A stretch of DNA of 64,000 nt from positions 4,407,501-4,471,500 of the forward strand of contig NZ_CP126994.1 in the NCBI RefSeq assembly GCF_030252425.1, in the 5' to 3' direction. Below the pieces are notes generated by a model. The model did not search any database. It worked only from the letters and a program-made list of their open reading frames with translations, and had not been told where the DNA came from. Position 1 is the first letter of the stretch. The number at the start of each line of letters is the position of its first letter. This document shows positions 8,642-21,469 of the stretch, in pieces. The translations under genes and the position numbers were made by a program. The stretch comes from Acidisoma sp. PAMC 29798 (GTDB lineage Bacteria > Pseudomonadota > Alphaproteobacteria > Acetobacterales > Acetobacteraceae).

Positions 8642-9658
8642 ATGGACGTAAATGTGGTGACATTGAAGGCAGAGGCGTGCCGTGACAGCGCGGAATTTCC
8701 GCCCTTCATGGCCAATCATCTGCCCATGATCCTGGTGGCGCTGGATCGCCTCTGCGCCTCGGCGGAGCGGCTTGACGCTTTTGCCCAAACCTACCGGGCC
8801 GAGCATGGGTTGCGACCGCAACCGCCCGCCCAGGCGCCGCTTGGCGTCGAGGACTGGATGTCTGCACGCGGACAAAGGTCGCGGGAAGCCGATCTGCGGG
8901 CCTTCTTTTCGCGACAAGTGGCTGCGCATGGCGGGGCGGCGACGATCGCGGCGTATCTGCCAGGGCTGGCGCCGGGCATGGCCGGCAGCGCCCTCCACCC
9001 CCTCATGCGCCTCGCCTATGCCGTGATGACTGAAGACGAGGCGGAAATCGGCGCTGCCCTGGGCTTTTGGGCCGCTACCTACCTGCCCCTCGACGAAGCG
9101 GGCCGCGGCCCCGGCGTAACGACGGACCCGGCGGAGGTGCTGCGGCGGGCTGCGGTTCTGCCCGGCGTGGCGGAGGCCGAGCCCGAGAGCGATCTCGTTT
9201 GGCACAATATGCGCGCGGTGGCGCAGGTGCCGTCTTTCGCTGGTGTGGCCGATTGGCTGATCATCCATGACGATACGCTCGACCGCATGGCCGCGGCCTC
9301 TCTCGCGCTCTATGCCGCCACGATGAGCTTTGAGGCGCTGCATGCCGTGACGGGCTGCCACTGGCTGCGGTTGCTGCGGCCCGTGGTTGCGGACCCGGCG
9401 CCGCTACTGCGCCATTTCTGGGTGGCGATTGCGGCTCTGATGCCGAAGATGGGCCTGCCGGAGATCCCGACGGCCGCGCAGGTCGCGGCATGGCGGCAGA
9501 CGCCCGCGCCTGACTGGCCGGCGATCATGGCGGCAGCGGCGGCCTCGGATGACGAGCACGACCCCAGCCTGACGTTTTCGGCCTTCGAGGAATGGCGCCG
9601 GACCGGCGATACTTTGTACCGCGTTGTCGCCGCAAAGCGGGTCGCGCTCATCGCATGA
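8642..9658 (+). CDS. Questin oxidase family protein (DUF4243)
   Basis: 338 aa. It resembles the questin oxidase-like family, whose fungal members (GedK, AflY) perform Baeyer-Villiger-type ring cleavage of anthraquinones. Bacterial members have no assigned substrate. Supporting segments are NHLPMILVALDRLCAS near residue 25, WHNMRAVAQVPSF near 185 and the C-terminal EEWRRTGDTLYRVVAAKR. No signal peptide is seen. The stop codon overlaps the start of the amidohydrolase gene by 4 bases, so the two are translated together. Its physiological role is unknown. Confidence 0.75.
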   Translation: MDVNVVTLKAEACRDSAEFPPFMANHLPMILVALDRLCASAERLDAFAQTYRAEHGLRPQPPAQAPLGVEDWMSARGQRSREADLRAFFSRQVAAHGGAATIAAYLPGLAPGMAGSALHPLMRLAYAVMTEDEAEIGAALGFWAATYLPLDEAGRGPGVTTDPAEVLRRAAVLPGVAEAEPESDLVWHNMRAVAQVPSFAGVADWLIIHDDTLDRMAAASLALYAATMSFEALHAVTGCHWLRLLRPVVADPAPLLRHFWVAIAALMPKMGLPEIPTAAQVAAWRQTPAPDWPAIMAAAAASDDEHDPSLTFSAFEEWRRTGDTLYRVVAAKRVALIA

Positions 9659-10860
9659 CGACGCCTGACATCTTCGCCAATTGCCGCCTGGCGGATGGGA
9701 GGCGGGTTGATCTTCATGTGGCGAAGGGTCGCATTAGCGATATCCTGCCGGCGGAAGTGGGCCCGGCCGGGCCTGACCGCTTCGATCTCGGCGGCCGGCT
9801 GGTGGTTCCAGGCTTCGTCGATGGCCATGTCCATCTCGACAAGACCTTGCTCGGCCTGCCCTTCCAGGCGCATCGGCCCGGCGACACGGTCGCCGAGCGC
9901 ATCGCCATCGAAAAGGCGGTGCTGCGTGATCTGCCAGTCCCGGTCGAGCAAAGGGCGCACGCGCTGGTGACCCAGATGTCGCGCTTCGGCACCGTCGCGC
10001 TGCGCAGCCACGTTGATATCGATACGGACTGGGGGTTGTCGAACCTGCACGCCCTGCTGCGCGTGCGGGAAGCGGTGCGGGCTATCATGGACATCCAGAT
10101 CGTGGCCTTTCCTCAGAATGGCATCCTGCGCGATCCCGGCACTGCGGCACTGCTTGATGAGGCAATCCGCGCGGGCGCCGATCTGATCGGCGGCCTCGAC
10201 CCCGCCGGTATCGATAGCGATATCAAAGGCCATCTCGACGTGGTCTTCGGGATTGCCGAGCGTCACGGCGTGGGCATCGACATTCATTTGCATGATGCGG
10301 GCGCCCTCGGCTGTTTCGAGCTGCGCGATATCGCGGCGCGCACCATCGCGGCCGGCTTGCAAGGAAGGGTGGCGGTGGCCCATGCCTTCGCCCTCGGATA
10401 CTCCGATCAAGCGGATGTGGATGCAACCGCCGAAGCGCTGGCGCGGGCGGAGGTCGCCATCATGACCAATGAGCCGGGCCCGGTGTCGATGCCGCCCGTG
10501 GCGCGTTTGCGCGCGGCGGGCGTGACGGTCTTTGCAGGCTCCGACAATATTCGCGATGCCTGGTCACCTTACGGCAATGGCGACATGCTGGAGCGCGCCA
10601 TGCTGATCGGGTATCGACAGGGCATGAAGACCGACGCCGATTTGTCACACACCTTCGCCATGGCGACGACGCTACCGGCGCGGGTATTGGGTTTGGGTGG
10701 CGACTATGGATTGGCCGTTGGCGCGCGCGCCGACCTCGTGGCGCTGGATGCGACGAGCGTGCCCGAGGCGCTGGTTGCCCGACCGAGCGGCCGAATGGTG
10801 ATCAAAGGCGGCCGCGTGCTGGACCATGCTTCGTCGTTTTCAGAGTCAGCGTCTTACTAA
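9655..10860 (+). CDS. Cytosine deaminase-like amidohydrolase
   Basis: A 401-aa metal-dependent hydrolase of the amidohydrolase superfamily, nearest in style to CodA and its N-isopropylammelide hydrolase relatives. Seen in order: HxH motif in VDGHVHLDKT (about 55-65), SHVDIDTDWGL, DIQIVAFPQNGIL near 145, metal-ligand DIHLHDAG near 210, VAHAFALG near 240, and the catalytic Asp in FAGSDNIRDAW near 295. The start at 9655 overlaps the upstream stop (ATGA). A longer in-frame form from 9592 would overlap heavily and is unlikely. The substrate is probably a cyclic amidine or nucleobase analogue, but this is not proven. Confidence 0.83.
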   Translation: MTTPDIFANCRLADGRRVDLHVAKGRISDILPAEVGPAGPDRFDLGGRLVVPGFVDGHVHLDKTLLGLPFQAHRPGDTVAERIAIEKAVLRDLPVPVEQRAHALVTQMSRFGTVALRSHVDIDTDWGLSNLHALLRVREAVRAIMDIQIVAFPQNGILRDPGTAALLDEAIRAGADLIGGLDPAGIDSDIKGHLDVVFGIAERHGVGIDIHLHDAGALGCFELRDIAARTIAAGLQGRVAVAHAFALGYSDQADVDATAEALARAEVAIMTNEPGPVSMPPVARLRAAGVTVFAGSDNIRDAWSPYGNGDMLERAMLIGYRQGMKTDADLSHTFAMATTLPARVLGLGGDYGLAVGARADLVALDATSVPEALVARPSGRMVIKGGRVLDHASSFSESASY

Positions 10861-10970
10861 AACCAAAAAGCTTGAGCCCTCAACTCCTCGTGAGGGATCT
10901 TCGTCTACTATCACTGCGCGTCTTATATCCACAAAGACATAGGTAGATCCTCCGACAAAAAAGGTTTCGC

Positions 10971-12068
10971 ATGAGGGTGCTCATTACCGGAGGCGCGGGC
11001 TTTATTGGCTGCCATTTGAGCAGAGCCTTGCTCGCCGAGGGATATGAGGTGCGGATCTTGGATCGGTTCATAGAACAGGTTCATGGCGGCGCGATGCCGC
11101 CGGACCCGGTGCTCCGGTCCGTCGACATCGTGACCGGCGATATTCGAGATGCCGAGGCCGTGATCAAGGCGGTCGATGGTGTCGATAAGGTCGTCCATCT
11201 GGCGGCGGAAGTCGGCGTCGGTCAAAGCATGTATGAGATCGACCGTTACGTCGACGTCAATGATCTGGGCACCGCGGTTCTGCTCAAGGCGCTTCTCGCG
11301 CATCCCGTTCAGCGCTTGGTCGTCGCGTCATCAATGAGCATCTACGGCGAAGGCCTCTACCAGACCGCCGACGGCCGTCTGATCGAGCAGGTGACGAGAC
11401 AGCCCGCCAGTGGCTGGGATCCGCGTGATGAGGATGGCGGCGTGCTCACCCCGGTGCCGACACCGGAATGGAAGCGGCCTGTGCTGTCCTCCGTTTATGC
11501 CATCACGAAATATACCCAAGAACGCTTGTGCATGAATGTGGTGCCTGCTTACGGCATGGAAAGCGTCGCGCTGCGCATGTTCAATGTCTTCGGCGCCGGC
11601 CAGGCGCTGTCCAATCCCTATACCGGTGTGCTCGCCATTTTCGCGGCACGCATCCTTAACGGCCAGAGCCCCATGGTCTTCGAGGATGGACAGCAGCAGC
11701 GCGACTTCGTTCATGTGGAAGACGTCGCACGTGCCTTCGTGCTTGCTCTGGAGACGCCCGGTGCTGCAGGCGGCGTCTTCAACGTTGGCAGTGGCCACCG
11801 TACGACGGTGGAGGATGTGGCACGTCTGCTGGCGCATTCGATGGGTCGGTCCGATCTTGCGCCGGAGTTTCTGAACAAGGCGCGGGCAGGAGATATCCGG
11901 CACTGCTTCGCGGACCTGACGCTGTCTCGTGATGTCCTTGGGTTCGTGCCAAAGCGAAGCCTTGCGGATGGTGTGCCAGAACTTGCGGAGTGGCTCGCGC
12001 GTCAGACTGCGACGGATCGCGTTTTGGATGCGCGCAAAGAACTCGAAGCGCGGGGTCTGGTCGCGTGA
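10971..12068 (+). CDS. NAD-dependent epimerase/dehydratase (extended SDR)
   Basis: 365 aa, a sugar-nucleotide epimerase or dehydratase. The NAD-binding GGAGFIG motif is at residues 7-13, the catalytic Ser region is SSMSIYGEG near 122-130, and the YxxxK pair lies in SVYAITKYTQ near 175. It is the first gene of an eight-gene plus-strand cluster. The 110-base gap before it is AT-richer than its surroundings and presumably carries the cluster's promoter. Its stop overlaps the next gene's GTG start by 4 bases. The exact sugar nucleotide cannot be assigned. Confidence 0.88.
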   Translation: MRVLITGGAGFIGCHLSRALLAEGYEVRILDRFIEQVHGGAMPPDPVLRSVDIVTGDIRDAEAVIKAVDGVDKVVHLAAEVGVGQSMYEIDRYVDVNDLGTAVLLKALLAHPVQRLVVASSMSIYGEGLYQTADGRLIEQVTRQPASGWDPRDEDGGVLTPVPTPEWKRPVLSSVYAITKYTQERLCMNVVPAYGMESVALRMFNVFGAGQALSNPYTGVLAIFAARILNGQSPMVFEDGQQQRDFVHVEDVARAFVLALETPGAAGGVFNVGSGHRTTVEDVARLLAHSMGRSDLAPEFLNKARAGDIRHCFADLTLSRDVLGFVPKRSLADGVPELAEWLARQTATDRVLDARKELEARGLVA

Positions 12069-14095
12069 CGGTGGCTCCCAACGCGCCCAGCCTTGGCTTC
12101 GTCCAATGGTTTCGCCTGGGTGAGCGCGCGCATGCACTGCAGGCGGCGGATGCACTGGACGCCATGGGCATTCGCCATTTACGCACGCATCTTTCCTGGG
12201 CGGATTACCGTGCACCGGGGGGCGACGCTTGGTATGCGTGGCTTCTGCCGATGCTCGGCCGCCGCTTCGATCTGCTTCCCTGTCTGCATTACACGCCGCC
12301 GGATCTATCGGAGACCGGTCGGACCTCAGGCGCGCCACGCGCGTTGAAATCCTTTGCGGATTTCGTCGATGTGATGATCGACCGCCATGGCGATAGTTTC
12401 GCGTGGTTGGAACTTTGGAACGAGCCCAATAACCTGCTCGATTGGGACTGGCGGCAAGACCGCGACTGGCTCAAATTCTGTGAAATGCTTGGGGCGGCGG
12501 CCTATTGGGCGCAGAAGCGCGGCAAGCGGGTTGTTCTGCCCGCGAGTTGCCCGACCGACCTGCATTGGTTGCGCCTGATGGGTGAGCGCGGACTCATGAA
12601 TGTTGTCGATGCCGTCGGCATCCATGGCTTCCCCGGAACCTGGGAATCGGAAAGCGCCGGCGTCTGGCGCGGTTGGGCGGATGTGGTCGCTGAGGTGCGG
12701 GATGTCGTGTCATCCTTCAATCCAGCGGCCGAACTCTGGGTCACCGAAACCGGCTATTCCACATGGCGACAGGATGCCGCGCCGCAGCTCCGCGCTTTCA
12801 CGGCGGCCCTCGAAGCGCCGGTTTCGCGTGTCTATTGGTATGGCCTTCGCGATCTCGCTGATGATGTCATCGTGCAGGAAGGCCCGCATTTCGACGAGCG
12901 GCACTATCACTTTGGTGTCGATGATACAGATGGTCGGCCCAAGCTGCTGGGTCGCTTGCTCCGTAATGGCGGCATCGAGGCTGTGCGCGTAGTGACGGCG
13001 CTTGCGACCCCTGCCATCGTCAAGACCAAGCCCCTGCTCATTACCGGCGGCGCTGGCTTCATCGGCGCCAATCTGGCGCATCGCCTGGCCGGCGAAGGCG
13101 AGCATGTGCTGCTCTACGATGCTCTCGCCAGACCGGGCGTGGAGCAGAATCTCGCTTGGCTGCAGCGCCTCTATCCTGAGCGTGTGTCTTTCACGCTCGG
13201 GGATACACGAGACCGCGCCTCTGTTGCGCAGGCAACGGCGGATGCGACGGCAGTGTTTCATCTCGCGGCGCAGGTGGCAGTCACCACCAGCCTCGATGAT
13301 CCTACGGATGACCTGCAAACGAATATCCTCGGCACCTTCAATCTGTTGGAGTGTCTGAGGCGCAAGGGCGACAAGACGCCGATCATCTTCGCCAGCACCA
13401 ACAAGGTCTATGGCGATCTCGGGCAGGTTGGTCTCGACCTCATCGACGATGCTTGGGCGCCATCGGATGCCCGGCTTCGTCGCCAGGGCCTGGATGAGGA
13501 TTTTCCACTGTCTTTCGCGACGCCCTACGGCTGCTCGAAGGGCGCGGCGGACCAATATGTTCTCGATTACGCCCATAGCTATGGCGTGCCGAGCTGCGTG
13601 CTGCGGATGAGTTGTATCTATGGTCCGCGCCAGCTTGGCACGGAAGATCAAGGCTGGGTCGCACATTTCATGCTTCGCGCTGTGCAGAGGAAGCCGATTA
13701 CCCTCTTTGGCGACGGCAAGCAGGTGCGGGACATCCTGTATGTGACGGATGCGGTGGCGGCCTATGTCGCCGCCTGGAAACGTATCGGCGCCGTCAGTGG
13801 TCGCGCCTTCAATCTCGGTGGCGGCCTGCAAAACGCGGTGAGCCTGGTGCAATTGCTCGCGCATCTGGAGACGGTCTTGGGGCGCCCGATCGATATCGGC
13901 TTCGATGAGTGGCGGCAGCATGACCAGCGATACTTTGTCGCAGATAGCAGACGCGCGAAGGAGGCTCTTGGCCTCGCAGCGCCCGTCGCATGGCGGGATG
14001 GCACCATCCTCCTGATGCGGGAGATCGCCGAGCGCCACGGCGTGACGCTGCCGGGCGACGCGCACCGGACAACGCCGATGATGGTGACGGCATGA
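12065..14095 (+). CDS. Fusion: clan-A glycoside hydrolase-like domain + NAD-dependent epimerase
   Basis: 676 aa from a GTG start at 12065 that overlaps the previous stop (GTGA). Residues 1 to about 315 form a TIM-barrel glycosidase-like domain: ELWNEPNN places the likely acid/base at E120, and WVTETGYST the likely nucleophile at E228. Residues about 322-676 form an extended SDR: GGAGFIG at 328-334, STNKVYGD, PYGCSKGAADQY with the YxxxK pair, and MSCIYGPRQ, all close to CDP-paratose 2-epimerase-like enzymes. There is no signal peptide, so the hydrolase domain is cytoplasmic and probably acts on a lipid-linked or nucleotide-linked glycan intermediate. Both halves keep their key residues. Confidence 0.85.
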   Translation: MTVAPNAPSLGFVQWFRLGERAHALQAADALDAMGIRHLRTHLSWADYRAPGGDAWYAWLLPMLGRRFDLLPCLHYTPPDLSETGRTSGAPRALKSFADFVDVMIDRHGDSFAWLELWNEPNNLLDWDWRQDRDWLKFCEMLGAAAYWAQKRGKRVVLPASCPTDLHWLRLMGERGLMNVVDAVGIHGFPGTWESESAGVWRGWADVVAEVRDVVSSFNPAAELWVTETGYSTWRQDAAPQLRAFTAALEAPVSRVYWYGLRDLADDVIVQEGPHFDERHYHFGVDDTDGRPKLLGRLLRNGGIEAVRVVTALATPAIVKTKPLLITGGAGFIGANLAHRLAGEGEHVLLYDALARPGVEQNLAWLQRLYPERVSFTLGDTRDRASVAQATADATAVFHLAAQVAVTTSLDDPTDDLQTNILGTFNLLECLRRKGDKTPIIFASTNKVYGDLGQVGLDLIDDAWAPSDARLRRQGLDEDFPLSFATPYGCSKGAADQYVLDYAHSYGVPSCVLRMSCIYGPRQLGTEDQGWVAHFMLRAVQRKPITLFGDGKQVRDILYVTDAVAAYVAAWKRIGAVSGRAFNLGGGLQNAVSLVQLLAHLETVLGRPIDIGFDEWRQHDQRYFVADSRRAKEALGLAAPVAWRDGTILLMREIAERHGVTLPGDAHRTTPMMVTA

Positions 14096-15375
14096 AAGTC
14101 GCGCTCATCAACCCGAGCTGGGAGTACCGCAACAGCATTTATTTCGGCTGCCGCGCGCCCCACTTGCCGCTGGAACTCGGCTATAGCCGCGCGCTGCTGG
14201 AAGCGGCCGGACATGAGGTCCTGATGCTGGATGGGCAGATCCAGGGTCTGAGCATCGTCGATATCGCAACCAGGGTGCGCGATTTCGGGCCAGCCATGAC
14301 GGTGGTGACGACGGCGCCGACCTATCTGTTCTGGCGCTGCGCGCCGCCGGAGCTGCGGGTGCCGCAATTGATGCTGATAGCCCTTGGCGATGCGGCTGGC
14401 ATGACGGTGGCGGTGGGTCCGCATGGATCGGCCACGCCCGCGCCTGTGCTGCGTAAGCTGGGCGTCGACATCGTCGTGCGTGGCGAATGTGAAGACGTCA
14501 TCGCGGCATTGGCGGATTCCCCTGCGCGGCGTGACATTCCGGGCATCTCCTATATCAATGCATCGGGTGAGGTGCAGAGCATCGGCGCTGCCGCCGCCAC
14601 CCGCTTTACCGACACACCTGCGCTTGCGTGGCCGGCGGACTGGCTATTGCGCCACGATCATCATCATCATCGCTTCGATACGCCGCCCGTGGGGCCTGGC
14701 GCGGAAGTTGAGGCATCACGCGGTTGCCCCTATGCATGCACCTTCTGCGCCAAGATCGATTTCCGGGATCGCTACCGTAAACGCGACCTCGATGTCCTTC
14801 TTCAGGAGATCGACGGGCTCATCGCCCAAGGTGTGACCTACCTCTATTTCATCGACGAGATCTTTCTGCCGCGCCCGGACCTACTCCTGGCGCTGAAGGA
14901 CAGGAATATCCAGTTCGGCATCCAGACCCGAATCGATCTTTGGAAGCCGGAGTTGCTGGATCTCCTGGGCGCTGCCGGATGTGTCTCGATCGAGGCCGGG
15001 GTGGAGAGTCTGACAGTGGAAGGGCGTGCCCTTCTCGCCAAGAAATGCAAGCTCGACACAGATGAGCTCAGCGCTCTGTTGATCTACGCGCGGCGTAGCG
15101 TGCCCTTCGTGCAGGCCAACCTCATCCGCGCTGAAGAAAACGAAATGCCGCTGGTGGCCGAATGGCGGGCACAGCTTCACGAGCGGGGCGTTTGGGCGAA
15201 TGATCCGGTGCCCCTGTTTCCGTATCCGAGTTCGCCGGAATATCGCCGCCTATGGGGCATGCCGGATGATAAAGCCTGGGAGCGGGCGCTCGACTACTAT
15301 CTGTCGCAATTCACCTCCTTCAGTGATATCCAGGAAGAGCAGCCGCTGCCTCTCTCCGCATTGGAGCGTGCATGA
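14092..15375 (+). CDS. B12-binding domain radical SAM protein, rhizo-twelve type
   Basis: 427 aa, starting at ATG 14092 (4-base overlap). N-terminal residues 1-150 form a Rossmann-like cobalamin-binding fold (MKVALINPSW, LPLELGYSRALLEAAGHEV, VDIVVRGECED). The radical SAM core follows, with the 4Fe-4S cysteines C212, C216 and C219 in RGCPYACTFC. Later segments FIDEIFLP, GIQTRIDLW and CVSIEAGVES are characteristic. From memory it matches the TIGRFAM family named for the rhizo-twelve system of plant-associated bacteria; a search is needed to confirm. A run of histidines (HDHHHH, 188-193) precedes the cysteine motif. Expected chemistry is a radical methylation or rearrangement on the cluster's glycan. 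Confidence 0.88.
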   Translation: MKVALINPSWEYRNSIYFGCRAPHLPLELGYSRALLEAAGHEVLMLDGQIQGLSIVDIATRVRDFGPAMTVVTTAPTYLFWRCAPPELRVPQLMLIALGDAAGMTVAVGPHGSATPAPVLRKLGVDIVVRGECEDVIAALADSPARRDIPGISYINASGEVQSIGAAAATRFTDTPALAWPADWLLRHDHHHHRFDTPPVGPGAEVEASRGCPYACTFCAKIDFRDRYRKRDLDVLLQEIDGLIAQGVTYLYFIDEIFLPRPDLLLALKDRNIQFGIQTRIDLWKPELLDLLGAAGCVSIEAGVESLTVEGRALLAKKCKLDTDELSALLIYARRSVPFVQANLIRAEENEMPLVAEWRAQLHERGVWANDPVPLFPYPSSPEYRRLWGMPDDKAWERALDYYLSQFTSFSDIQEEQPLPLSALERA

Positions 15376-16490
15376 ACGCTTCGCGCTCGCCGCGGCGTCT
15401 TCTGATCACGACCGATGCGGTCGGTGGCGTCTGGTCCTACACACTCGATCTCGCGCGGGCGCTGTCCGAGCGGAAGGTCGAGGTAGAGCTGGCAATCCTA
15501 GGCCCTGCCGCCGCTCCGGCGCAGATGGCATCGGCCGCCGCGATTGCCGGGGCAACGGTGCATGACACTGCCCTGCCGCTGGACTGGATGACGGAGGATG
15601 CGGCGACCTTGGAGTCCACCGCGGCCCTGCTCGCAACTTTGGCCTGGGAGCGCGAGGTCGACCTCGTTCAAGTGCATACGCCTGCTTTGGTTGGATCGTC
15701 CGCCTGGCCGGCGCCGGTGCTGGCGGTGGCGCATTCCTGTGTCGGGACGTGGTGGAATGCCGTGCGAGACACCCCGCTGCCAGAAGCATTTCATGCGCGG
15801 CGCGATGCGATGGCCGCCGGTCTCGACGCAGCGGACGGCGTTGTGGCGCCAACGCACGCCTTCGCGGCGGCGTTACGCCAAGTCTATGGCACGCGGCGGG
15901 ACATCGCGGTCGTACATAATGGTCGCTTGGCTAGTGCACGCTCCGAGCGCGCGAGACGAGGCGTGCTGTGTGCCGGCCGTTTGTGGGATGAGGGCAAGAA
16001 CATTGCCTTTCTTGATCGTGTCGCAGGCCTGACGCCATCGGTGCCGTTTCAGGCAGCGGGTCCGACCCAAGGCGCTAACGGCGCGGCGGTGGAATTGCGC
16101 CGCATGGAGATGCTGGGAACGCTGAGCGAGACGGGGATGGCGGAGGCGATGGGCGCCGCGCGCATCTTTGCTTCTCCCGCGCTGTATGAGCCCTTTGGCC
16201 TCGCGGTCCTGGAAGCGGCGCAGGCGGGCCTGCCGCTGGTCCTGGCCGATATCCCGACCTTGCGGGAGTTGTGGGATGGCGCCGCCATCTTCCTATTGCC
16301 CCATGATGAATCAGCCTGGGCCGCGACACTGGACGCCTTGCATGGCGACGACGCGGGGTGCCGCCTTTGGGGTGAGCGCGCACAGCGACGGGCCTGCACC
16401 TATACCGTTGAGCGGCTCGCCGCCGCCATGTGGGACAAATACAGGCTAATGATCGCGACATCGGCCGCTGATCGGGTTGATGTCGCATGA
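15372..16490 (+). CDS. Glycosyltransferase family 4 protein
   Basis: A 372-aa GT-B glycosyltransferase. The N-terminal glycine-rich acceptor-side loop is TTDAVGGVWSYTLDLA. The C-terminal nucleotide-sugar site holds the ExxGLxxxE signature in LYEPFGLAVLEAAQAGLPLV near 272-290, followed by ADIPTLRELW. It is soluble or peripheral, with no membrane segment. The ATG overlaps the upstream stop by 4 bases, and its own stop overlaps the next gene likewise. Confidence 0.88.
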   Translation: MNASRSPRRLLITTDAVGGVWSYTLDLARALSERKVEVELAILGPAAAPAQMASAAAIAGATVHDTALPLDWMTEDAATLESTAALLATLAWEREVDLVQVHTPALVGSSAWPAPVLAVAHSCVGTWWNAVRDTPLPEAFHARRDAMAAGLDAADGVVAPTHAFAAALRQVYGTRRDIAVVHNGRLASARSERARRGVLCAGRLWDEGKNIAFLDRVAGLTPSVPFQAAGPTQGANGAAVELRRMEMLGTLSETGMAEAMGAARIFASPALYEPFGLAVLEAAQAGLPLVLADIPTLRELWDGAAIFLLPHDESAWAATLDALHGDDAGCRLWGERAQRRACTYTVERLAAAMWDKYRLMIATSAADRVDVA

Positions 16491-17605
16491 AGATCGTCTA
16501 TTTCACACAGTCGCTGATCTCCTGCTGGAACCACGGCAATGCCCATTTCCTGCGCGGCGTGATGCGGGTGCTGATCGCAAGCGGCCATGATGTGACAATC
16601 TGCGAACCGGCATCGAGCTGGAGTCGTGACAATCTCATGCGCGAAAGTGCGACTGCCGCAAGCGCGTTTGCCGCGACATTCCCGACTCTCGCAGGCCGTG
16701 TCTGCATCATGCCAGAGGAGGATGAGGACCGCCTGGATGCTGCGTTGGATGGCGCGGACCTGGTTCTCGTTCATGAGTGGAATGAGCCGGATCTCGTGGC
16801 GTCTATCGGCGAAAGACGTGTCCGCGCGGGTCGCTTCACGCTGCTGTTCCACGATACGCATCACCGCATGGTCAGTGAGCCGGACGCGATGGCCCGATAC
16901 GACCTTTCGGGGTATGATGGCGTCCTGGCATTCGGAGAGGCCTTGAGCGAGGCCTATCGCAAAGCCGGATGGTCTGGCCGGGTCTTCACCTGGCATGAGG
17001 CAGCGGATGACGGATTGTTTCGTCCACCCGAAACATCAACGGCCCGCGCGGGTGCGGTGTGGATCGGCAATTGGGGGGATGGGGAGCGCAGTCAGGAACT
17101 CCGCGACTATATGCTGGCCACCAGTGCGCGGATCGGCCTGCCGCTCGACATTTACGGCGTGCGTTATCCTGACGAGGCAAAGGCCGAATTGGACCGCCAC
17201 GGCGCGCAGTATCACGGTTGGGCTGCGAATGCGCGCGCGCCAGAGATCTTTGCGCGCCATAGGTTCACGCTCCATGTGCCCCGGCGCTTTTACGTGACGC
17301 AGCTGCCCGGTATTCCCACAATTCGGGTGTTCGAAGCGCTCGCCTGCGGCATTCCGTTGCTCTCGGCGCCGTGGCAGGACTCGGAGCGACTCTTCGAACC
17401 CGGTTTCGACTACCTTCAGGCGAAGACGCCGGAGGAGATGGAAATACTCATGCGCAGCCTCCTCCATGACCCAGACCTCCGCGAGGCTTTGGCCGAGCAT
17501 GGCCTTGCCACCATTCGCGCCCGCCATACCTGCGCCCATCGTGTCACGGAGCTGCTCGCTATTGTCGAAACGCTGCGGGGCGCACCGGCGCGAGAGGCCG
17601 CGTGA
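16487..17605 (+). CDS. CgeB-like glycosyltransferase, copy 1
   Basis: 372 aa with the CgeB/glycosyl-transferases-group-1 type C-terminal domain. The N-terminal half begins MKIVYFTQSLISCWNHGNAH. The C-terminal half contains WIGNWGDGERSQELRDY, then VPRRFYVTQLPGIPTIRVFE and ALACGIPLLSAPWQD, where the conserved Glu and glycine-rich turn mark the sugar-nucleotide pocket. It is first of three adjacent related genes. The 4-base overlaps at both ends indicate tight co-translation. Confidence 0.83.
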   Translation: MKIVYFTQSLISCWNHGNAHFLRGVMRVLIASGHDVTICEPASSWSRDNLMRESATAASAFAATFPTLAGRVCIMPEEDEDRLDAALDGADLVLVHEWNEPDLVASIGERRVRAGRFTLLFHDTHHRMVSEPDAMARYDLSGYDGVLAFGEALSEAYRKAGWSGRVFTWHEAADDGLFRPPETSTARAGAVWIGNWGDGERSQELRDYMLATSARIGLPLDIYGVRYPDEAKAELDRHGAQYHGWAANARAPEIFARHRFTLHVPRRFYVTQLPGIPTIRVFEALACGIPLLSAPWQDSERLFEPGFDYLQAKTPEEMEILMRSLLHDPDLREALAEHGLATIRARHTCAHRVTELLAIVETLRGAPAREAA

Positions 17606-18699
17606 TGCGGATAGCCTTCTATGGATCGAGCCTGCTTTCGTCTTATTGGAATGGGGCGGCCACGTATTATCGCGGACTTCTGCGCGCTCTGGCGACGCAT
17701 GGCCACACGATCACCTTCTACGAACCGGATGCCTTCGATCGCCAGTCGCATCGCGACATCGAGCCACCCAATTGGGCGCGCGTGGTGGTCTATCCCGCCA
17801 CTGAGGATGGCCTGCGTCGGGTGATGGCGGAGGCAGCGGAGGCCGATGTGGTCATCAAGGCCAGCGGCGTCGGGGTCTTCGATGACGATTTGATCGAGGG
17901 TGTCATGGCGGCGGCCCGCCCGGACGCCGTAAGAATTTTCTGGGATGTAGACGCACCCGCGACCCTGGCGGAGATCGCGCCCGAGGTCGACCACCCGATC
18001 CGCCGGGCGCTCCCGAGCCTCGATGTCGTGCTCACCTATGGCGGTGGGCAACCGGTGATCGATGCCTATCGCGCCTTGGGTGCGCGGGCTTGCACGCCGA
18101 TCTACAATGGCCTTGACTCCAGCACGCATTATCCGGTCGCCGTGGACGCTGGCCTCGCCACGGACTTGGTCTTTCTCGGCAATCGCTTGCCCGATCGCGA
18201 GGCACGGGTCGAGCAGTTCTTTCTGGAACCCGCGCAAGCTTTGCCGGATCGCCGCTTTTTGCTTGCCGGATCGGGTTGGGCGGACAAAGCCGTGAGCGGG
18301 AATGTGCGACTGCTTGGCCATGTCGGCACCGCGCAGCACAATGCGCTGAATTGCTCGGCACTCGCGGTCTTGAACATCGCGCGGGACAGCATGGCCTCGA
18401 CCGGATTTTCGCCCGCGACGCGCGTCTTCGAAGCGGCGGGGGCCGGCGCCTGCTTGCTCACGGATTATTGGGACGGCATCGAACTGTTTCTTGTTCCAGA
18501 CGAGGAAATTCTCGTGGCGCGCGATGGCCGAGACGTCATGCGTCATCTCAGTGAATTGACGCCTCAACGGGCGCGCGCGATCGGGGACAGGGCGCGCTTG
18601 AAGGTCCTCTCAGAGCATACCTATGAACGTCGTGCGGCGCTCGTCGATATCATCCTGAGGGAGGCTCTGCAGGCAAGGCGCGCGGCGGTGGCGGCATGA
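17605..18699 (+). CDS. CgeB-like glycosyltransferase, copy 2
   Basis: 364 aa from ATG 17605, which shares a base with the previous stop (TGATG). A GTG three bases earlier is equally possible. The start MRIAFYGSSLLSSYWNGAAT parallels copies 1 and 3. The C-terminal domain shows LVFLGNRLPDREARVE, FLLAGSGW, then ARDSMASTGFSPATRVFEAA and GAGACLLTDYWDG, the CgeB-type donor site. The FSPATRVFEAA block is almost the same as in copy 3, so copies 2 and 3 look closer to each other than to copy 1. Confidence 0.84.
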   Translation: MRIAFYGSSLLSSYWNGAATYYRGLLRALATHGHTITFYEPDAFDRQSHRDIEPPNWARVVVYPATEDGLRRVMAEAAEADVVIKASGVGVFDDDLIEGVMAAARPDAVRIFWDVDAPATLAEIAPEVDHPIRRALPSLDVVLTYGGGQPVIDAYRALGARACTPIYNGLDSSTHYPVAVDAGLATDLVFLGNRLPDREARVEQFFLEPAQALPDRRFLLAGSGWADKAVSGNVRLLGHVGTAQHNALNCSALAVLNIARDSMASTGFSPATRVFEAAGAGACLLTDYWDGIELFLVPDEEILVARDGRDVMRHLSELTPQRARAIGDRARLKVLSEHTYERRAALVDIILREALQARRAAVAA

Positions 18700-19784
18700 A
18701 GATCGTCGTGCTCGGCCTCAGCCTCTCCTCCTCCTGGGGCAACGGCCACGCAACCACCTTTCGGGCGCTGTTGCGTGTGCTTGGCGCACGCCATGATGTG
18801 TTATTTTTGGAGCGCGACCAGCCTTGGTATGCCGCAAACCGTGATTTGCCTCATCCAGATTTCTGTCGGCTCGCCTTTTACGAGGATGTGGCGGGTCTTG
18901 CCCGCTTTCGCTCCGAGATCGAAGCGGCCGATGCGGTCATCCTCGGCTCCTATGTCACCGAAGGCGCTGTGCTAGCGCCGATGATCCGCGATTGGGTGAA
19001 TACCGTCTTCTGCTTCTATGACATCGATACGCCGGTCACGCTGAGCAAACTCCAGCACGGTGACATCGACTATGTCAGCCACGACACCATTGCACTCTTC
19101 GACGTTTATTTCTCTTTTACTGGGGGTCCCACGCTGCGGCGGCTTGAAACCGAGTTCGGTGCGCGCCGCGCCACGCCGCTGTATTGCAGCGTTGACGACT
19201 CTCGCTACCGGCCGATGGTTGTCGAAACCAACTGGGACCTTGGCTATCTCGGAACCTATAGTCCGGATCGGCAACCGGCCCTGGAGCGTTTGCTGCTTGA
19301 ACCCGCCCGCCGCATGCCCAGCCGCCGCTTCGTGGTCGCCGGGCCGATGTACCCCGCCGATATCGACTGGCCGGAGAATGTCGAGCGGATCGACCATATA
19401 GCCCCCGACGATCATGCGGCTTTCTACAATGCCCAGTCTTGGACATTGAACATCACGCGCGCGGATATGATCGCATCCGGCTATAGCCCGAGTGTTCGAC
19501 TGTTCGAGGCAACGGCTTGCGGTACGGCGGTGATGAGCGATGTGTGGCTCGGATTGGACACGATCTTCAAGCCGGATCACGAGATTATGCTTGTCGAGAC
19601 CAGCGCCGATGTCGTGGTGGCGCTTGCTGCTGCGGCGCAGGATCGCGCGCAGCTGGCGGAGGCCGGGCGCGCCCGCTGCCTCGCCATGCATACCTCCAAG
19701 CATCGGGCAGCCGAGTTGGAAGCGGCCATCGCGTCCTTCAAGCTGTCTCCATCGGCCGCTGGTCGCGCAGGAGCTTTGTCATGA
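18696..19784 (+). CDS. CgeB-like glycosyltransferase, copy 3
   Basis: 362 aa. It begins MKIVVLGLSLSSSWGNGHAT, again the serine-rich opening plus W-x-G/H-N-G of its two neighbours. The C-terminal donor domain has LGYLGTYSPDRQPALERLL, FVVAGPMYP, ITRADMIASGYSPSVRLFEA and TACGTAVMSDVWLG. The ATG overlaps the previous stop by 4 bases, and the stop overlaps the UDP-xylose-synthase-like gene by 4 bases. Specific donor and acceptor are unknown. Confidence 0.85.
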   Translation: MKIVVLGLSLSSSWGNGHATTFRALLRVLGARHDVLFLERDQPWYAANRDLPHPDFCRLAFYEDVAGLARFRSEIEAADAVILGSYVTEGAVLAPMIRDWVNTVFCFYDIDTPVTLSKLQHGDIDYVSHDTIALFDVYFSFTGGPTLRRLETEFGARRATPLYCSVDDSRYRPMVVETNWDLGYLGTYSPDRQPALERLLLEPARRMPSRRFVVAGPMYPADIDWPENVERIDHIAPDDHAAFYNAQSWTLNITRADMIASGYSPSVRLFEATACGTAVMSDVWLGLDTIFKPDHEIMLVETSADVVVALAAAAQDRAQLAEAGRARCLAMHTSKHRAAELEAAIASFKLSPSAAGRAGALS

Positions 19785-20773
19785 AGACCCGATCCTTCAG
19801 GACCGCGCTGGTGGCCGGTGGCGCCGGTTTTGTGGGCTCGCATCTCTGTGACCATCTGATCGCAGCGGGTTATCGCGTCACCTGTCTCGATAGTCTGCTG
19901 ACCAGCACAATGGATAACTTGCGCGGATTGCTGCGCGACTCACGCTTCAGCTTTGTCGAGCATGATGTGATCAACCCATTGCCGCGTGGCCTGACGGCGG
20001 ATCTGGTGTTCAATCTTGCCTGCGCGGCGTCACCGCCGCTCTATCAACTCGATCCTGTCCACACGATGATGACGAGTGTGGTGGGAACCAATAACTTGCT
20101 GATCTTCGCGGCAGAGCAGGGCGCGCGGCTATTCCAGGCCTCGACCAGCGAGGTCTACGGAAACCCGACTGTGCATCCGCAGCCGGAAAGCTATTTTGGC
20201 AACGTCAATACGGTCAGCCCCCGCGCATGTTACGATGAGGGCAAGCGTGCTGCCGAAACCTTGTGCTTTGATTATCTGCGCCAGGGCATGGCGGATGTGC
20301 GGGTCGCCCGTATCTTCAACACCTACGGTCCTCGCCTACGGGCGAGCGATGGGCGGGTGGTGTCGAACATGGTCTCCCAGGCGATCGCGGGGGAAGCAAT
20401 TACGGTCTACGGGGATGGCGCGCAAACCCGCTCGTTCTGCTATGTCGATGATCTGATCGATGGTGTCATGCGACTGATGCTGCATGAGGCGCCGCTGATG
20501 CATCCGGTGAACCTCGGCAACCCGACGGAACTTCCGATCGTTGAGATTGCGGCGATGATCCGCACCCTGGCAGGCTCCAGCTCACCCTTCGTGTTTCGGC
20601 CGCTGCCGGTGGATGATCCCTGTCGTCGCCAACCGGACATCACCCTCGCCCGCGCACTGTTGCAGTGGCAGCCGCGCATCGGCCTGACGCAGGGCCTGGA
20701 GCGGACCATCGACTGGTTTCGTGAGGTGCAAGAGCAGACCGTGGTCGGTGGCGCGGCCGAGCGCACGGTCTGA
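19781..20773 (+). CDS. UDP-glucuronate decarboxylase-like SDR (UDP-xylose synthase type)
   Basis: 330 aa, starting at ATG 19781 within the previous stop (ATGA). The family would convert UDP-glucuronate to UDP-xylose with NAD. Motifs: GGAGFVGSHLCDHL at about 14-27, NLACAASPPLYQLDPVHTM near 88, TSEVYGNPTVHPQPE near 125, PRACYDEGKRAAET with the YxxxK pair near 150, and RIFNTYGPR. These closely match bacterial UXS enzymes. It closes the cluster and likely supplies a pentose donor to the four glycosyltransferases. Confidence 0.87.
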   Translation: MKTRSFRTALVAGGAGFVGSHLCDHLIAAGYRVTCLDSLLTSTMDNLRGLLRDSRFSFVEHDVINPLPRGLTADLVFNLACAASPPLYQLDPVHTMMTSVVGTNNLLIFAAEQGARLFQASTSEVYGNPTVHPQPESYFGNVNTVSPRACYDEGKRAAETLCFDYLRQGMADVRVARIFNTYGPRLRASDGRVVSNMVSQAIAGEAITVYGDGAQTRSFCYVDDLIDGVMRLMLHEAPLMHPVNLGNPTELPIVEIAAMIRTLAGSSSPFVFRPLPVDDPCRRQPDITLARALLQWQPRIGLTQGLERTIDWFREVQEQTVVGGAAERTV

Positions 20774-20809
20774 GACGATAAAACGCGTTGAGGCGTCTTC
20801 CGCCAAACC

Positions 20810-21367
20810 TTACGGGTAAAAGCCGAAGCCCGACGAATACTGGTCCGCATGCGTCGTCGCATTATTGACCGTGGGCATCACTGGAATGTCACTGAGGCGG
20901 CTTTGCACCTCCGCCGGCGGCACCGTGAAGATGGGCGTGGCGAGCAGGCGCATGACGCCCGCTTGGTCACCCGCGCGATACGCCTGGGCCAGGGCGAGCA
21001 TGGTATCGACCACAGTCTGTGACGGTGCGGCGGCATTGATACCCACATACTGGCGCAGGCTCTCGCGCGATTGCAGCATCTGCAGCCTGAACAGCGCTGG
21101 CATCATGGTCATCCATCGCGGCGAGACATTGAGCTGGCCGCCCATGTAGTCGAGCGCGGCGACGGCATCCGCCGCACGCGCAGGATCGTTTTGCATATGA
21201 TGCGCGAAGTCATAGGCCGCCACATCCAGCGACCGGGTGTCGATGTCACCGTTGGTGCCCAGCGCCCCCGGCGGCATGATGGCAACGCTGGGCGGGGGCG
21301 TTGCGATCGCGCAGGCCGCAAGGCCAGCCATCAGTGCCGCTGACAACACCAAACCGCTACGGTTCAT
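20810..21367 (-). CDS. Putative lipoprotein of unknown function
   Basis: 185 aa from ATG 21367. The signal peptide ends in a lipobox (AGLAAC), giving a predicted mature N-terminal lipidated cysteine. The rest is predicted soluble and helical, with no family I recognise. It follows the efflux outer-membrane gene on the same strand after about 100 bases and could be its distal operon partner. It is convergent with the glycan cluster. Confidence 0.62.
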   Translation of the reverse strand: MNRSGLVLSAALMAGLAACAIATPPPSVAIMPPGALGTNGDIDTRSLDVAAYDFAHHMQNDPARAADAVAALDYMGGQLNVSPRWMTMMPALFRLQMLQSRESLRQYVGINAAAPSQTVVDTMLALAQAYRAGDQAGVMRLLATPIFTVPPAEVQSRLSDIPVMPTVNNATTHADQYSSGFGFYP

Positions 21368-21469
21368 GACGCCTCTCCCGTTCGCGGAACAGGCCGCGAG
21401 ACGCGCCACAATGGCCATCGTGCGCCGCCTGTCCAGAGGGCAGCGGCGCACGCACGGCGATGTGACAGA

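Follow-up and report, generated by a model that had tools for sequence, protein, structure and literature searches.

A reduced variant of the TIGR04295 gene cluster in Acidisoma sp. PAMC 29798 and a possible pathway to an inositol-linked oligosaccharide

Related systems and the conserved core

The NCBIfam family TIGR04295 (B12_rSAM_oligo) comprises B12-binding radical S-adenosylmethionine (SAM) proteins, and its description gives no function. The pathway around it is carried by the well-studied Sinorhizobium meliloti, Mesorhizobium, Methylobacterium and Azospirillum, and a literature search found no published product for it. Searches for TIGR04295, TIGR04290 and Rta_06860 found no paper, and the S. 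meliloti locus tags SMb20228, SMb20230-20245 and SMb20247, chosen by estimated position, led to one paper, in which SMb20231 is a sugar ABC transporter protein. Here we analyze a gene cluster at positions 10971-20773 of a 64,000-nucleotide stretch of the Acidisoma sp. PAMC 29798 contig NZ_CP126994.1 (positions 4,407,501 to 4,471,500), referred to as the window. The cluster belongs to this named family without assigned function, as a reduced variant. Its eight genes encode two short-chain dehydrogenases/reductases (SDR1 and SDR3), a glycosidase-SDR fusion (GH-SDR2), the B12/radical SAM protein (rSAM), a GT4 glycosyltransferase and three CgeB-type transferases (CgeB1-3). We tentatively read it, at a little short of an even chance, as the single-unit, reduced form of a pathway, widespread and found mainly in Alphaproteobacteria, in which a small oligosaccharide is assembled on inositol.

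The TIGR04295 systems of Mesorhizobium, Methylobacterium and Roseomonas share all eight core genes with the window, in an unchanged order, and those of Azospirillum have most of them. Fuller clusters add INO1 (inositol-3-phosphate synthase), a histidine phosphatase, a TIGR04290 methyltransferase and a stand-alone glycosidase; the first two lie beside the core in most relatives and the other two in many. In contrast, INO1, a close phosphatase and a TIGR04290 methyltransferase were not detected in the genome of the window, and the window glycosidase is fused to SDR2 and unpermuted. Plasmid pTM1 of Tistrella mobilis KA081020-065 (TMO_RS19505-RS19470) has the same eight genes in the same order, with GH-SDR2 annotated as one gene and a glycosidase domain that is 58% identical, but it also has a TIGR04290 methyltransferase ~1 kb downstream and a sigma-70 family sigma factor gene just upstream. 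On pSymB of S. meliloti 1021 (~242-258 kb), SDR1, SDR2, GT4, CgeB1-3 and SDR3 occur together with all four accessory genes, but the 30 kb searched contain no rSAM match and carry a zinc-binding dehydrogenase and a Gfo/Idh/MocA oxidoreductase instead. The mycothiol pathway (INO1 and MshA) is similar in that the INO1 of relatives matches the mycothiol INO1 model and that GT4 has MshA as its best NCBIfam match, both under cut-off, whereas the remainder of the cluster does not resemble that pathway. AprD4, the radical SAM diol dehydratase of the apramycin pathway, and OxsB differ from rSAM in sequence (~18-20% identity) and in gene context.

The initial annotation, made from the sequence alone, likened rSAM to a family of a "rhizo-twelve" system, which we take to be the TIGR04295 system; this name is not confirmed, being absent from the family description and from any paper found. 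The eight core and four accessory genes add up to twelve and may be its origin. The choice of family itself was sound, because the window protein scores 681.2 bits against TIGR04295, far above the cut-off of 400, and covers model positions 1-422 of 422. The core genes are also adjacent in other genomes and not scattered. Among 80 rSAM-seeded loci from named genomes (the best 80 of 287 matches), mostly from Mesorhizobium and Methylobacterium/Methylorubrum but also from Azospirillum, Inquilinus, Roseomonas, Sphingomonas and others, the recurrent order is SDR1-SDR2-rSAM-GT4-CgeB1-2-3-SDR3, and all eight genes are whole in 54. Many of the remaining loci are cut by contig ends, and some have no SDR3, GT4 or later CgeB genes in the fetched stretch. 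Ten of 398 genomes drawn independently from the phylum have a TIGR04295 protein over cut-off, and in all ten, the window included, SDR2 is on one flank and GT4 on the other. In the window's family, 34 of 299 genomes have rSAM, as do two of the five genomes searched in its genus. By median identity rSAM is the most conserved core protein (64-83% identical to that of the window in the 80 loci) and GT4 the least (35-53%); SDR1 is 55-87% identical to 74 orthologues.

Enzyme families and replacement of the radical SAM protein

Family searches uphold the earlier calls of SDRs, one GT4, three CgeB-type transferases and a B12/radical SAM protein. All three SDRs are NAD-dependent epimerase/dehydratases. 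SDR3, which had been called UXS-like (UDP-xylose synthase), matches UDP-glucuronate decarboxylase 4gll with 452.7 bits, against 182.5 for the next family, and Tyr-151 and Lys-155 of its YxxxK motif are invariant in the ten aligned sequences. The SDR2 half is placed in the CDP-tyvelose 2-epimerase family, its closest solved family by a wide margin (360 and 357 bits to 1orr and 9rl0, 162 to the next family; 269.8 and 250.8 bits with the window protein alone as query), from which its presumed substrate is taken. SDR1 is predicted to be a GalE-like epimerase; its best solved relative is UDP-glucose 4-epimerase 4zrm (189.5 bits), with no clear winner. For GT4, the best NCBIfam match is MshA at 51.5 bits, far below the cut-off of 462.5, and the solved relatives are Tll1590, maltose-1-P synthase, PimA and MshA. 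A CgeB2 profile found no relative among solved structures up to E 0.01.

In rSAM, the three cysteines of the CX3CX2C motif are invariant in 24 of 24 aligned sequences, and the B12-binding domain PF02310 scores 32.0 bits, against a cut-off of 32.1. Structure comparison shows that residues 1-416 match the fold of cobalamin-bound OxsB and TsrM. The fold is near AprD4 and OxsB, and AprD4 acts on a sugar-like substrate according to its entry title. OxsB likewise has a sugar-like substrate and is not known to be a methylase.

The rSAM gene is replaced by a pair of dehydrogenase genes in a number of related clusters. Plasmid searches returned 157 records with SDR1 as query versus nine with rSAM (Azospirillum, five; Bradyrhizobium, two; Geminicoccaceae and Tistrella, one each). 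The clusters opened in Sinorhizobium, Rhizobium, Roseomonas mucosa, Paracoccus yeei and Xanthomonas sacchari have no rSAM and contain a zinc-binding dehydrogenase and a Gfo/Idh/MocA oxidoreductase. Of the 136 plasmid records that contain the zinc dehydrogenase, none comes from the four rSAM groups, and the two sets have no genus in common. Among 114 loci with SDR1, 107 have only rSAM, six only the pair, one neither and none both; a 100-bit limit keeps weak zinc-dehydrogenase homologues (25-30% identity, 54-84 bits) near nine rSAM loci out of these counts. Apart from the window, the 107 were retrieved through rSAM, and one of the six through the pair, so that these proportions have no meaning, and only the non-co-occurrence within the flanks counts. 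Within the window's family, the zinc dehydrogenase occurs in 17 genomes, always next to a Gfo gene; in 12 of these the pair is part of the cluster, and the stretch retrieved has no rSAM. On an SDR1 tree (65 hand-picked loci, a quick method, SH-aLRT support only) the swap needs seven changes, all forced by well-supported branches.

The best NCBIfam matches of the pair are scyllo-inosose 3-dehydrogenase IolM (95 bits, cut-off 450) and inositol 2-dehydrogenase IolG (108.6 bits, cut-off 355). The repeated one-for-one replacement suggests that rSAM and the pair do the same or an equivalent step, on inositol, and the likeness of the pair to inositol dehydrogenases thus suggests a cyclitol as the substrate of rSAM.

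Accessory genes, upstream motifs and gene packing

One representative INO1 scores 539 bits against the mycothiol model TIGR03450, under the cut-off of 638, and the accessory methyltransferase scores 377 bits against TIGR04290 (cut-off 300). INO1 is within reach in 72 of the 97 loci with long flanks. Full-length INO1 occurs in 60 of 299 genomes of the window's family, namely in 25 of 34 with rSAM and 16 of 17 with the zinc dehydrogenase. Genomes with either gene have it in 40 of 50 cases versus 20 of 249 others (Fisher p ~2e-25, kinship uncorrected; overlaps of these genome sets were counted by hand from lists). Where rSAM has no linked INO1, 8 of 17 genomes (some with short contigs) still contain a full-length INO1, compared with 35 of 265 rSAM-free genomes (p 0.0013), a background that includes the zinc-dehydrogenase genomes.

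The window's strain (genome G000, 4.99 Mb) has only distant paralogues of the histidine phosphatase (best 57.5 bits, 25% identity). It does encode an inosose dehydratase of the IolE type (388 bits, cut-off 290), which makes it probable that the strain encounters inositol in its environment. The window therefore holds a reduced variant: its glycosidase is fused, searches of the genome found neither INO1 nor a TIGR04290 protein over cut-off, and an inositol-catabolism gene is present. The statement in the initial annotation that no methyltransferase is present stands for the window cluster, and none in the genome exceeds the TIGR04290 cut-off, but the fuller systems carry one.

The glycosidase-SDR fusion had been recognized correctly. 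The glycosidase half has no Pfam or NCBIfam family of its own, and a search against solved structures gave nothing significant (best E 0.13). It contains the motifs WNEPN and W-V-x-E-x-G, with both glutamates kept in 11 of 11 aligned sequences; the NEP acid/base and the downstream nucleophile Glu we take to be motifs of GH-A clan glycosidases. This domain directly precedes SDR2 in 13 loci: eleven of the main set, L226 and T. mobilis pTM1. A single reading frame is confirmed for the window, for its genus-mate L031 and for the annotated plasmid genes of L188, L190 and L227; the other fusion-type loci are cases of adjacency. INO1 is near none of the 13, some with short flanks, and with long flanks the count is 0 of 8 against 72 of 89 other loci (p 7e-6, kinship uncorrected). 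An origin of the fusion as one clade is ruled out. The label needs seven changes on the SDR2 tree, so the fusion state changed repeatedly. One contig of a metagenome-assembled genome (MAG) labeled Myxococcales (L110) has both a fused and a permuted glycosidase, which could reflect horizontal transfer or mis-binning.

The stand-alone glycosidase is mostly annotated as beta-xylosidase in plasmid records. Of 23 such stand-alone proteins, 22 align with the fused domain in two segments that have exchanged places; the 23rd (L108) is cut by the locus end. Window residues ~117-294 correspond to the N-terminal part of the stand-alone protein and residues ~4-110 to its C-terminal part, each with E <1e-7. 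The stand-alone genes start just before the WNEPN motif, and in 11 of the 16 cases in which both sites could be located there is a 4-base overlap between this start and the stop of the methyltransferase gene. These start sites and overlaps indicate that the permutation is real in the genes and not a mis-called start. At the level of sequence, the stand-alone glycosidase is circularly permuted relative to the domain that is joined to SDR2 in the window, and the permuted protein would be expected to close its barrel.

Upstream of SDR1, an unbiased two-part word search gave GGAACAA and GGAAC-N17-GTTC as top words. They resemble the published EcfG box, which reads GGAAC-N16-CGTT in Rhizobium etli (PMC3892343) and, in Sphingomonas melonis (PMC6599016), GGAAC-N17-20-GTT. 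A motif GGAAC-N16/17-NGTT, whose NGTT form was chosen after the word search, was then scored within 300 bases before the first gene, with permutations, all 1024 5-mers, dinucleotide shuffles and internal genes as controls. It precedes SDR1 in 49 of 73 loci, which represent 11 of 22 genus-level groups (set by record title, MAGs apart), whereas 200 dinucleotide shuffles gave a mean of 0.65 groups and a maximum of 3. GGAAC ranks first of the 1024 5-mers. The motif also precedes INO1 in 35 of 52 cases, and none of seven internal core genes has it upstream in more than one locus. Among nine plasmid regions checked it is before SDR1 in three (L187, L188 and L193), and it was not found before the Tistrella SDR1. 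Motif matches on S. meliloti pSymB were rejected as main evidence, because eight in 30 kb on both strands is about what chance gives; only their positions before units are suggestive.

The genome of the window encodes two proteins with a PhyR sigma2-type domain. In L040, a locus of Mesorhizobium ciceri WSM1271 that contains INO1 and rSAM, genes for a CheB/CheR/HWE kinase and for a protein with a PhyR-type sigma domain were identified among the neighbors, and related kinase genes are found in 20 loci, including L031; the gene caller behind these neighbor families is crude and was used solely to find them. In many relatives the system seems to be part of the EcfG general stress response, and a stress protectant in the cytoplasm is therefore the most likely product. 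The available parts of stress-response papers on Ensifer aridi, Bradyrhizobium and Methylobacterium do not mention the cluster under the terms searched. Upstream of SDR1, the window (10880-10910) and L031 have in common a box of approximately CTCAACTCCyCGTGArGGATC, which is not EcfG-like and is possibly their own promoter or operator.

The eight genes found by the initial annotation are confirmed as plus-strand frames without internal stops (Table 1). All seven junctions overlap, as had been described, each by 4 bases; five are ATGA and two GTGA, in the order GTGA, ATGA, ATGA, ATGA, GTGA, ATGA, ATGA from 5' to 3'. The accompanying claim of four ATGA-type overlaps in a row at the end is slightly wrong, since the last three are GTGA, ATGA, ATGA. 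GH-SDR2 and CgeB2 start with GTG, and the overlap of CgeB2 is 1 base if the alternative ATG is used. Across the seeded loci including the window, 1- or 4-base overlaps are frequent at SDR1-SDR2 (54/74), SDR2-rSAM (72/76), CgeB1-CgeB2 (66/69) and CgeB2-CgeB3 (60/71). They occur in 27 of 72 cases at GT4-CgeB1 and in 9 of 76 at rSAM-GT4, but 69 of 76 rSAM-GT4 junctions overlap to some extent. At CgeB3-SDR3 the count is 4 of 61, with a gap of at most 30 bases in 51 of 61. Tight packing is conserved, and the seven-fold overlap is not.

Table 1. Features of the window cluster and its upstream region
Feature	Position	Strand	Assignment
Intergenic region, presumed promoter	10861..10970	+	110 bases; EcfG-type box not found
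SDR1	10971..12068	+	Predicted extended NAD-dependent epimerase, GalE-like; PF01370 185 bits
GH-SDR2	12065..14095	+	Glycosidase-like N-terminal domain (~residues 1-310) fused to SDR of CDP-tyvelose 2-epimerase family
rSAM	14092..15375	+	B12-binding domain/radical SAM protein, TIGR04295; CX3CX2C at residues 212-219
GT4 glycosyltransferase	15372..16490	+	PF13439/PF13692
CgeB1	16487..17605	+	PF13524 glycosyltransferase, 125.7 bits
CgeB2	17602..18699	+	PF13524 glycosyltransferase, 131.3 bits; start GTG 17602 or ATG 17605
CgeB3	18696..19784	+	PF13524 glycosyltransferase, 127 bits
SDR3	19781..20773	+	UDP-glucuronate decarboxylase (UDP-xylose synthase, UXS) family

The eight proteins contain no strongly hydrophobic 19-residue stretch (maximum Kyte-Doolittle mean 1.56), and family annotation of the frames found no polymerase, flippase or export gene within the window cluster. 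Rfam searches found no cobalamin riboswitch in the window or in the seven rSAM-seeded loci scanned. Downstream lies an opposite-strand open frame (20810-21451). Directly upstream (8642-10860), a questin-oxidase-like gene overlaps a PRK05985-type amidohydrolase gene, with no link to the cluster seen, and positions 1-2714 hold the end of an rRNA operon (partial 23S rRNA, 5S rRNA and tRNA-Met). Some clusters elsewhere (L051 at 18968-20871, L156, L172-L174, L180, L181 and L183) have a fourth CgeB-type transferase and a sugar-nucleotidyltransferase, which extend the system toward fourteen genes. Bradyrhizobium sp. 195 has a phosphopentomutase-annotated gene in its cluster on a conjugative plasmid (L186, 8419-9624), and a second TIGR04295 copy on another plasmid. 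A polysaccharide pyruvyl transferase gene and an F420-hydrogenase beta-subunit-like gene adjoin the clusters of Sinorhizobium medicae (L187, 2548-5038) and Paracoccus yeei (L189, 3409-5846), a possible extra decoration.

A proposed pathway and its alternatives

From the enzyme families, the probable product is a small oligosaccharide that is linked to inositol and contains xylose and a C2-epimerized hexose. In full systems, INO1 and the histidine phosphatase would convert glucose-6-phosphate to free myo-inositol; the window's strain, in which no INO1 was found, would take up inositol from outside. SDR3 is expected from its family to supply UDP-xylose, SDR2 would act like CDP-tyvelose 2-epimerase and invert a nucleotide hexose at C2, and SDR1 would provide a further nucleotide sugar. 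GT4 and the three CgeB-type enzymes could then place about four sugars onto the acceptor. From its repeated replacement, the B12/radical SAM protein would modify the cyclitol ring or a cyclitol glycoside, probably by epimerization or a redox change, and the fused glycosidase might trim or transfer the pentose. The initial annotation had likewise envisaged a small pentose-containing product, and its pentose is retained through UXS; the cytoplasmic location that it proposed is plausible. It missed inositol, the key likely ingredient, as the additional genes of the fuller systems are found in relatives. A bolder proposal, which we consider rather unlikely as it stands, is that the cobalamin enzyme inverts or oxidizes a carbon of free or glycosylated inositol, elsewhere the job of two inositol-dehydrogenase-like enzymes, in a stress-induced inositol oligosaccharide pathway of symbiotic and plant-associated bacteria, including S. 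meliloti with the dehydrogenase form.

Several observations weigh against the proposed inositol pathway and its stress control. INO1 gave no match in the genome of the window's strain, where the best match to TIGR04290 has 37.4 bits and none exceeds the cut-off of 300. The association of INO1 with the cluster ignores kinship and is largely direct linkage, with 8 of 17 among the rSAM genomes that have no linked INO1. The EcfG-type box was not found before the window cluster, and only 10 of 43 loci in its family have the motif. Mesorhizobium accounts for 35 of the 49 motif loci (35/35, against 14/38 in other groups), and the strict CGTT form is present in only 7 of 73. The matches of the pair to IolM and IolG are far under their cut-offs. 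In 5 of the 17 zinc-dehydrogenase genomes the pair has no cluster gene beside it in the fetched stretch (two on contigs <9 kb). One genome (G689) has both rSAM and the pair, on different contigs, where chance would give ~2, so that the 299-genome set alone does not prove exclusion. A Roseomonas marmotae cluster has neither in the stretch covered, and the step may therefore be optional.

The evidence can be arranged differently. The oligosaccharide pathway could be as proposed, with rSAM acting as a C-methyltransferase that depends on methylcobalamin and creates a branch at a carbon of a sugar or cyclitol, and with the dehydrogenase pair as an unrelated alternative decoration. We regard this as somewhat unlikely: TsrM, MgmA and TokK, relatives by sequence and fold, are methylases according to their entry titles, as is the related CysS, but OxsB, which is not known to be a methylase, and AprD4, which by its entry title is none, are tied or better in fold, and repeated one-for-one replacement by the pair is easier to explain with the same net reaction. 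Comparable doubt attaches to the idea that the eight-gene variant of the window makes a different, inositol-free product and that inositol belongs to the twelve-gene form only. The lack of INO1 around the fusion-type loci fits this idea, as does its presence in full length elsewhere in only 3 of 9 fusion-type genomes of the window's family; yet the core proteins are orthologous throughout, with rSAM closely conserved, and the window's genome contains an inositol-catabolism gene.

Two further alternatives concern the place of the product. A lipid-anchored glycan, such as a glycosylated phosphatidylinositol or another glycolipid, would agree with the relation of GT4 to PimA and MshA, and inositol could serve as a lipid head group. 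This is unlikely, as phosphatidylinositol synthase, flippase and acyltransferase are absent inside the cluster in ten annotated plasmid regions and among the annotated part of the neighbor families, and no hydrophobic segment is present in the eight proteins. UXS, epimerases and several glycosyltransferases are typical of exported polysaccharide or lipopolysaccharide decoration loci, and pyruvyl transferase genes lie close by in two relatives. However, polymerase, flippase and export genes are missing inside the window cluster and those of the ten plasmid regions, and relatives have EcfG-type boxes, which makes an ordinary locus of that kind very improbable.

What is new is the presence of EcfG-type promoters before the cluster in relatives, the swap between rSAM and the dehydrogenase pair, and the circularly permuted glycosidase; the last two are of interest in their own right. 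The comparison names the likely ingredients of the product (inositol, xylose and a C2-epimerized hexose), its likely trigger (the EcfG stress response) and a likely site of the rSAM step. If true, a class of stress metabolite would be added to those of plant-associated bacteria, and the radical chemistry at the cyclitol might be of a new type.

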